Source of the DNA: Antennarius striatus
Taxonomy: Eukaryota > Chordata > Actinopteri > Lophiiformes > Antennariidae
Assembly (NCBI RefSeq): GCF_040054535.1
Contig: NC_090779.1
Coordinates: 25,772,501 to 25,836,500 of the forward strand
Direction of reading: 5' to 3'
DNA: 64,000 bases
Part shown: positions 4,701 through 7,700 of the stretch, in pieces
Layout: every line of letters begins with the position of its first letter
Numbering within the stretch: position 1 is the first letter of the stretch
Translations under genes and position numbers: made by a program
Notes under the pieces: model-generated
What the model was told of the DNA's origin: nothing
The model's database searches: none
The model's input: only the letters and a program-made list of their open reading frames with translations

Positions 4701-7700
4701 GTGATGATAGAGCGCGATGGTGCCCCCGGGGGTCAAAAGTCATTTCAGTCAAAATAAAGCCAAAATGTCACTTTGTTAAATCTTATCATGTGAACTCTGT
4801 TGAATTGAGAGTCAACAGTTTCTGCTTGTCCAGAAAAAACGAGCACCACCAGAGGGAGGACCTTCCTTCTGAAGGGGTCCTGGAACCCCCCCCATGAATC
4901 GGACTTACAGTTCATGGACTTACGGTTCAGGGACTCACGGTTCAGGGACTTACGGTTCAGGGACTTAATGTTCAGGGACTTAATGTTCAGGGACTTACGA
5001 TTCAGGGACTTAATGTTCAGGGACTTACGGTTCAGGGACTCACGGTTCAGGGACTCACGGTTCAGGGACTCACAGTTCAGGGACTTACTGTTCAGGGACT
5101 TACTGTTCAGGGACTTACGGTTCAGGGACTTAATGTTCAGGGACTTAATGTTCAGGGACTTACGGTTCAGGGACTTGACGGCGCAGTGCTGGTTCTGTCC
5201 GTCCGGCTCCAGCAGCGTTCCGTGGAAAACACAGCCGAAGTGACCTGTTAGGACATGTGTGTTAGAACATACCTGTTAGAACATACATGTATAATCACAC
5301 CATCCCTGCCCCCTTTGGATGAAAGCCAACATCATCCTTGCTGTGAATCTGAATTGTGTTGGGTGGGTTGGGCCGTCATAAGCAGATATGGCGCCGGCAC
5401 CTGAACCCCAGCTAGCATCTAGCAAACATCTATAAGTGTTCTGATGGATCCAGTCCCGTGTGCGAGCAATCAAACCCATTACCCCCCGTCCTCATGACTC
5501 GTGTCTTGTCCATAGATGGGAAACACCCACCGAACGCTCAGGAAGACCAATCAGGTATTCGACGTGTATTTCAACGACCCCTTTGACACCCCTTGGTACC
5601 CCCATTAACCATCGTTGAGGAGCCAGACGGGTTTCGACTATGGTCGTTGGAATACAGACAGCACTGACCACACCTCACAGGGTTAATAAACTGGGACCAG
5701 ACCAGCCACCACCAGAACTGAAGAAGCCTCTTGGCTGAGAGGATAAACATCTTCAAGAAAGTCCAGTGGATTGATTTAAACAGTTCTGGATAACCATGAC
5801 CTGGAGAACCGAGAACCTCCACAGACACCAGTCAGGTGATTCAGCCACGCTGCGATTGGACAAATGGACGGAGTTGATTTAGCAGGCGATGGCTTTAATG
5901 CTCATTACCCTAAAAAAACAGAAAGACATCCGTCTTCCTGCTTCACACCTTCAACAGGTGATGGTCTTAAATCACCGTCCACCTCTCGGTAAATCTGTCC
6001 ACCAGGAAACCTGGTCCGAGGCGTCGTTCATTAATACCCCTACCAGCTAAGAGGCCACGCCAGAGCCCCTTGAGTTACTGCGCTTCTGATTGAATTATAT
6101 CTCTTAAGACACGAAGGCTCGGCCCAGACGGCGAGGAGTGGAGTAATAAAACAAGCGCGGCGTTCTCCAATCACGTCCCTGCAGATGGCTGAGGGTGTTG
6201 GGTTACGTCCCCCAACAATGGACCCTGGGAATGCTGGGAATACTAGCTGAGAACAAATCATCCTACGCCGCGTTAAAGACCCTGCCTCTCAGCCGGTCCT
6301 TTCTTCAGGGGATAACTCGGGGGGAGTCGGGGGTCTTTCTCGTCTTGATGTTAAATCTGATCCGCGGGCCAGACCCCGCCCACTCCGGCGGCTCACGATG
6401 AGGTGATTTTCTGTCTGCCTGTCAAGCCTGCGGTCAGATAAAGATGCAATTAAGCTCTTTGAGGGCAACTTAAGCTTTCCAGCAGCTTTACATAAATCTC
6501 AAATTGAATCGAAGCTCTTTGGGCGATGGTATCGCTCCCCCAGCAGCCAACCCATCAGAACTCTGTTATCGGGTCGTCTTGTCGGAGTTTCACTTCAGAA
6601 GTTATGAGTGGAAAGTTTGAAGACACTGAGTCTCAGAATGAAAAGACCAGAGACGGACGGAAAACAAAAAAGAACGTGAATCTAGCGTGTCGTTGGCGTG
6701 ACGAGAGACGCAGTGCCGTGGCCTCTTGTGATTGGTTGAGCCCATGTCTGACCTCTGCCGATGACCTGGTTGAGGTGGAGCAGCAGCTGCTCCCGGGCGA
6801 TCACCACGTGCTGCACCTCCGTCAGCAGGTCCGGGTGGAGGCATGACGGGTCGATGTGGACCGGCGCCATCAGCAGGGGCGACACCAGCTCGCCTTCCAT
6901 CCCCAGACCCATCCTGGCTCCAAGTGCCCCCAGTCGGGGCGAAAGCAGCTCCCCGTTGCCGCCGTAGATGGGGGGAGCCGCCCGGCATGTTTCAGGCCTG
7001 TCGGCGCCCTGATCTGTGAAGCAAAGGGAGAAGGGAGGGGTGAGAGGTCAGCGAATCAAACGCCAGCGCCTCCGGAGGTCAAGGTGTGTCACATGATCAG
7101 AGAGGGACGCCGGACGGAGGAAAAACGGGATCTGGCTCCTCCAAAGACGTCCCGACGATCAGAGGGGCTCCAACAACATGCACACCTCCAGTCACCGATC
7201 CCACACCCCCACGGCCCCCCAGGACAGGCATTAGTTCATTAGTGGGTCCACCTCTTCCAACGAGAACCTTTCAGGATCAGGAAAATTGCTGGTTCTATCA
7301 TAGTCAGGATCAGAATACATGGAGGCCCCTGAAGCCCCCAGGATACACGCTGAGGAAACCAGATCCACGCCCCCCCCGAAAGACCCGCTGGAGTCCTGAT
7401 GGCCCCTGACTCTGACGGGTTCTGACAGTAATGGACTAACAGGTGGGCCGGACAGGTGGAACTGGACTACAGGTTGGTTCAAAGCATGCACCGCTAGCGT
7501 AGCATTTAGCCCCACAGGGAGGGGGGCAGGGGGCGGGGCCAGCGTACCCTCCAGCAGGGTGGTCCTGTAGTCCACCGACTCGTGGGACACCATCTCGTTG
7601 TTGGAGCCGACGCTCCGGGCGTTAGCCAGCCGGTCCAGGTGCTGGATGTGTCCCCGGCCGTCGTACCACACCTCAGACAGGTCTACAGGGAGGGGGGCAG

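Follow-up and report, generated by a model that had tools for sequence, protein, structure and literature searches.

The window analysed here is a 64,000-nt stretch of the striated frogfish genome (Antennarius striatus, contig NC_090779.1, positions 25,772,501 to 25,836,500). Its minus strand contains MET, which extends from about position 38,082 to about position 1,480: the kinase stretch matches the human HGF receptor/MET with 160 bits and RON with 103 bits, and the locus is therefore MET, a better match than RON. The MET protein assembled from the window and read through the array described below is 100% identical to Antennarius striatus hepatocyte growth factor receptor isoform X2 (the aligned part amounting to 44% of the region), and exons 15 to 18 spliced in silico form a substring of this deposited frogfish protein (P0121, isoform X2). 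The name “exon 16” agrees with the exon order obtained with a human MET protein as probe and follows the human exon numbers.

MET exon 16 occupies 5164-5244 (81 nt, minus strand), as given by the match of the spliced exons 15 to 18 to frogfish MET. It follows the acceptor CCTAACAG and codes for the end of a Gly codon, 26 residues and the first base of an Arg codon. Its 3' end reads AAGTCCCTGAACC / ...GTCAAGTCCCTGAACC, and the authentic donor GT (ACC/GTAAGT, 5162-5163, minus strand), with which the junction in P0121 agrees, constitutes the first two bases of the first unit of a tandem array. Exon 17 (3782-3963, minus strand), likewise placed by the spliced match to frogfish MET, lies behind the acceptor ...CCTCAAAG/GCATCACG, and the Arg codon is divided across the splice as C/GC.

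The array is a 15-bp minisatellite spanning 4901-5181 on the minus strand, for which Tandem Repeats Finder (TRF) reported a period of 15, 18.7 copies and 90% matches. The 18 nt at the high end of the TRF span (5164-5181) are exon 16 itself; the array overlaps the exon end at 5164 and hence straddles the exon-intron boundary. Its intronic part comprises 17 complete units (units 1 to 17, 4909-5163) and a partial unit 18, which matches for its first 8 nt only (4901-4908). Across the 18 positions of the donor hexamer, GTAAGT occurs nine times, GTGAGT four times and TTAAGT five times. GTRAGT is thus retained at 13/18 positions, namely the authentic donor and 12 extra ones, while 5/18 are dead (TTAAGT), including those of the two units directly after unit 1. 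According to the unit-by-unit sequence listing and the donor scoring, the 12 further putative in-frame donors are spread over 4907-5118 (minus strand). Use of the nearest (at 5118) would add 45 nt, or 15 amino acids, and use of the last (at 4908) 255 nt, or 85 amino acids. The donor series GT-TT-TT-GT found at units 1 to 4 recurs at units 12 to 15, and such recurrent blocks suggest multi-unit duplication, as is usual for minisatellites.

The sense frame passes through the array as VKSLN-(R/I/S/C)(K/E)SLN... without a stop. The first in-frame stop is located at intron nt 416, and any donor of the array keeps the reading frame, while each of the remaining two frames meets one stop per complete unit. 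Taken together, these data confirm what the initial annotation had observed, namely a 15-bp unit present 18 times behind exon 16 (in detail, 17 complete units and an 8-nt partial one), in frame and free of stops, with GTAAGT or GTGAGT in 13 copies if the authentic donor is included.

Selection for an open frame was considered and rejected, as the openness is inherited from the frame of the exon and the 15-bp period. The absence of stops follows from a unit copied from the exon's own coding frame, and the period is a multiple of three owing to the 15-bp spacing of two AAGT words at the junction (see below), so that neither feature needs selection; of random 15-mers, about 81% lack a stop in one frame. 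Among the 17 units, we counted six distinct changes from the unit consensus, one synonymous and five non-synonymous. An excess of synonymous changes between these units, which would speak for selection as a coding repeat, was not found, and because five of the six changes alter the amino acid, there is no sign of the array being read as protein.

Donors were scored with a weight matrix of approximate human frequencies, and the scores are meant as ranks rather than absolute values. The first donor reached a score of 6.06 with a U1 pairing of -5.7 kcal/mol. Of the 12 later GTRAGT donors, nine equal or exceed the first in score and three fall slightly below it (5.37), with the top values at units 5 and 6 (7.06 each) and unit 18 (6.87); U1 pairing is about equal across all 12. 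Since the first donor is outstanding neither in score nor in U1 pairing, strength alone does not set the choice of donor, and the similarity of the values makes donor competition physically possible.

These 12 extra in-frame donors would be the basis of a working alternative-donor series, in which MET isoforms are lengthened by 15 to 85 residues within the beta3-alphaC loop and the length of the allele sets the mix. We regard such a series as unlikely. A large insert near the catalytic lysine, in this case three residues past it, is expected to harm the kinase. Moreover, the two units after the first donor are dead, 5/18 donor positions are lost, and the unit variants show no coding constraint. 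An in-frame extension of this type is known from human FGFR3, where a cryptic donor 90 nt into intron 8 leads to a 30-residue in-frame insertion that is pathogenic (described in the available part of PMC10888313), and this case indicates that a receptor kinase can be extended in frame from an intron and that such an extension can be of consequence.

The deposited proteins speak for the first donor. In the frogfish MET isoform X2, exon 16 is joined to exon 17 at the first donor (KSLN-RITD) without an insert; the frogfish protein evidence on donor use consists of this one deposited protein, an isoform X1 being deposited as well. For comparison, we used 240 homologues (120 listed of 170 and 120 listed of 800), all of them cluster representatives, with P0121 the only one known from this species. 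A second KSLN[RIS] motif was found in 0/240 of the matches listed. The junction pattern was matched by 128/240 listed homologues, and all 128 share one spacing. Likewise, an insertion of at least two residues at frogfish residues 1112 to 1122 was present in 0/101 proteins of full MET length. Given this make-up of the set, the comparison is a weak test for rare isoforms. We infer that the first donor is mainly used, also at the level of RNA, and that normal MET is made.

The proposal of the initial annotation that competing donors could give rise to kinase isoforms is upheld in its first part, as competition is possible by score and U1 pairing, but not in its second: exon 16 is joined at the first donor in isoform X2, and the insert is missing from all 240 listed homologues. 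It had further placed the insert right after the catalytic Lys1114. This lysine is correctly named in frogfish numbering (P0121) and corresponds, by the human MET probe, to K1110 of the human protein, but the insert would follow Asn1117, three residues on. Isoforms from later donors are nevertheless possible as an idea, for which a precedent exists. A more far-reaching version assumes that an array of variable length in the germline tunes the kinase, in that a fraction of the transcripts would encode (RKSLN)n inserts in the beta3-alphaC loop, their length set by the allele, and give graded, partly inactive or altered receptors; we consider this very unlikely.

In a comparison of 101 fish proteins of full MET length, the long difference seen most often is the 45-residue block of exon 14 (7548-7682), which 24 of them lack. 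From this, isoforms that skip exon 14 seem to be commonly annotated in fish. In human MET, exon 14 skipping is oncogenic, as stated in the accessible text of PMC12616425. We considered the block as the basis of the split between frogfish X1 and X2 and rejected it, as frogfish X2 has the block.

At the level of the whole genome (42 contigs, 548.38 Mb), the array stands alone. A two-unit pattern with one mismatch allowed gave 17 matches, all inside the array, and hence no array unit elsewhere in the 548-Mb assembly, with the reservation that the pattern search may skip very common words; the reversed control gave no match. A dispersed repeat family inserted at the locus was therefore rejected, since the unit matched only at the array. 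Two MET-family paralogues of the same genome, which we take to be mst1r (RON), have AACA/GTGAGT and AACA/GTAAGC at the homologous junction and no array.

The retention of GTRAGT at 13/18 positions might also be read as a sign that the array is kept for U1 binding, with spare donors or U1 recruitment making the splicing of intron 16 robust or shielding the transcript from premature cleavage. However, the donor is lost at five positions, and there is no genome-wide enrichment of donor-like arrays: the period-15 TRAGT triplet had 345 matches compared to 812 for the reversed control, in counts where the hits of one array are counted repeatedly and about the first 100 places are listed. We give this reading a very low probability. 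Least credible, and rejected by us, is an assembly artefact or a collapsed or expanded copy number: one assembly was examined, in which heterozygous length variants were possibly purged (Purge_dups), but the unit variants stand in irregular order, and the assembly was built from PacBio HiFi reads, of which more than 99.69% exceed 13 kb; such reads easily span the 281 bp of the array and make its collapse unlikely (assembly details from the available part of PMC11192929).

The window is located 0.87-0.93 Mb from the contig end, and minisatellites (period 7-70, at least 3 copies, at least 60 bp) cover 16.5% of it, compared to 0.27% at mid-arm (18 samples of 10 kb, with 5,326 of 180,000 bases being N). 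In 4-kb samples along the same contig, coverage was 11.0% at 0.9 Mb and ranged from 0 to 4.5% in the seven samples taken between 5 and 25 Mb; it was 6.9% at 25.4 Mb, 17.6% at 26.0 Mb, 8.7% at 26.2 Mb and 26.6% at 26.5 Mb. The sample just beside the window consisted entirely of N, and the last 2.5 kb of the contig showed no minisatellite. Other chromosomes, sampled about 0.9 Mb from their high end, gave a pooled coverage of 5.7% (eight 4-kb samples, two of them with none). The high coverage near the contig end places MET in a subterminal stretch prone to minisatellites, and such a minisatellite-rich chromosome end explains the birth of the array at this place without a role in splicing.

Enrichment of minisatellites at the splice sites of MET was rejected as well. 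One of 38 junctions, some of whose exon ends are approximate, overlaps a minisatellite, compared to a mean of 6.3 when the sites are shifted; at most one overlap was obtained in 6% of the shifts, which indicates, if anything, a weak depletion. For the 19 donors shifted round the window, on average 3.1 lie in a minisatellite, and the observed number is one.

Further repeats were seen in the window. The donor of MET exon 13 (ATG/GTGTGT at 8023) supplies the first unit of a (GT)99 tract (7826-8023) and is a second donor of this gene taken up in a tandem repeat. The tract shares with the exon 16 array that a long repeat opens with the donor GT; in contrast to that array, the period is 2, most later GTs would shift the frame, and the tract is a simple repeat and no copied exon end. 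At 3055-3124, a (GT/CA)32 tract is found 5 nt from the exon 20 donor (CCT/GTGAGCAC), and another such tract 14 nt from the exon 6 donor. One 64-bp minisatellite unit forms long arrays at 14778-15484 and 31445-32115 within the MET span and occurs in reversed orientation at 23139-23288; its presence at three places points to a mobile element as the carrier of this repeat. A TAC-type array of 1.4 kb is located at 52381-53790.

With respect to the origin of the array, the junction itself offers a likely seed. On the minus strand, between 5158 and 5176, the word AAGT occurs once in the exon (5173-5176, within the Lys-Ser codons) and again, 15 bp apart, in the donor GTAAGT (5158-5161, donor positions +3 to +6). 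In a self-comparison at offset 15, the match begins within the exon at AAGTCCCTGAAC. This direct repeat makes plausible the earlier suggestion that a word of the exon resembling the donor had seeded the duplication. Replication slippage or unequal exchange between the two AAGT words would have duplicated a piece composed of the terminal 13 nt of exon 16 and the GT of its donor, and repeated unit duplications may then have led to about 17 intronic copies. Since the unit is a multiple of three, is derived from coding sequence and has the donor at its front, each expansion kept the first donor and the frame.

Overall, we consider it likely that the array is a young, nearly neutral minisatellite private to this locus, which was born by duplication across the exon-intron junction and is tolerated, with the first donor mainly used; its mode of birth, its age and its neutrality are what we infer. 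It would be tolerated in an intron near a minisatellite-dense chromosome end because the donor and the frame survive. Should a later donor be used now and then, pentapeptides of the (RKSLN)n type would be inserted behind Asn1117, in the stretch that links strand beta3 to helix alphaC. Three points count against this explanation: the first donor is not singled out by donor score or U1 pairing, the last 2.5 kb of the contig are without a minisatellite, and the human IFI6 precedent (below) shows that such arrays can be used.

The array of frogfish MET represents a natural experiment in 5' splice-site choice, with 13 near-identical in-frame donors behind one conserved exon. It would reveal which of many equal donors a vertebrate spliceosome chooses in vivo, and for MET ordinary RNA-seq is enough to read this choice. 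The array also illustrates that the end of an exon can seed a minisatellite while the gene is left unbroken. If later donors were used, a major receptor kinase would carry an insert of variable length next to its catalytic lysine.

That a minisatellite can contain many donors is not a new idea. The minisatellite of human IFI6 (also G1P3 or 6-16) reportedly lies at an exon-intron boundary and is said to yield proteins that differ by a few in-frame residues. Its unit reportedly measures 12 bp, compared to 15 bp in frogfish MET, where the array adjoins the catalytic lysine of a receptor tyrosine kinase. By its title, the original report (Turri, Cuin and Porter, Nucleic Acids Res 1995, 23:1854) ascribes multiple splice donor sites to this minisatellite, and a paper citing it states that two downstream repeat units serve as donors, resulting in three mRNAs. 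Both systems share minisatellite units that supply splice donors (putative ones in MET), and three features of the IFI6 type recur in the MET array, which straddles the boundary, consists mostly of donor-bearing units and keeps the frame. Transcripts from two downstream units are reported for IFI6; the extra donors of frogfish MET are predicted from the sequence.

In human segmental duplications, internal tandem repeats at exon-intron boundaries can alter splicing and coding, according to the accessible text of PMC2812944. These cases likewise involve minisatellite expansion across a splice boundary, but they concern differences between paralogues, are mostly supported by RNA and have on average four units of 30 bp, whereas in frogfish MET a 15-bp unit is present in about 18 copies and the junction is otherwise conserved. 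Among the matches listed in a narrow literature search, none reports an array of donors in MET or in any other kinase, and none describes a closer precedent than IFI6 and the repeats of PMC2812944. The MET array is thus real and unusual, yet of a kind known from one human gene.
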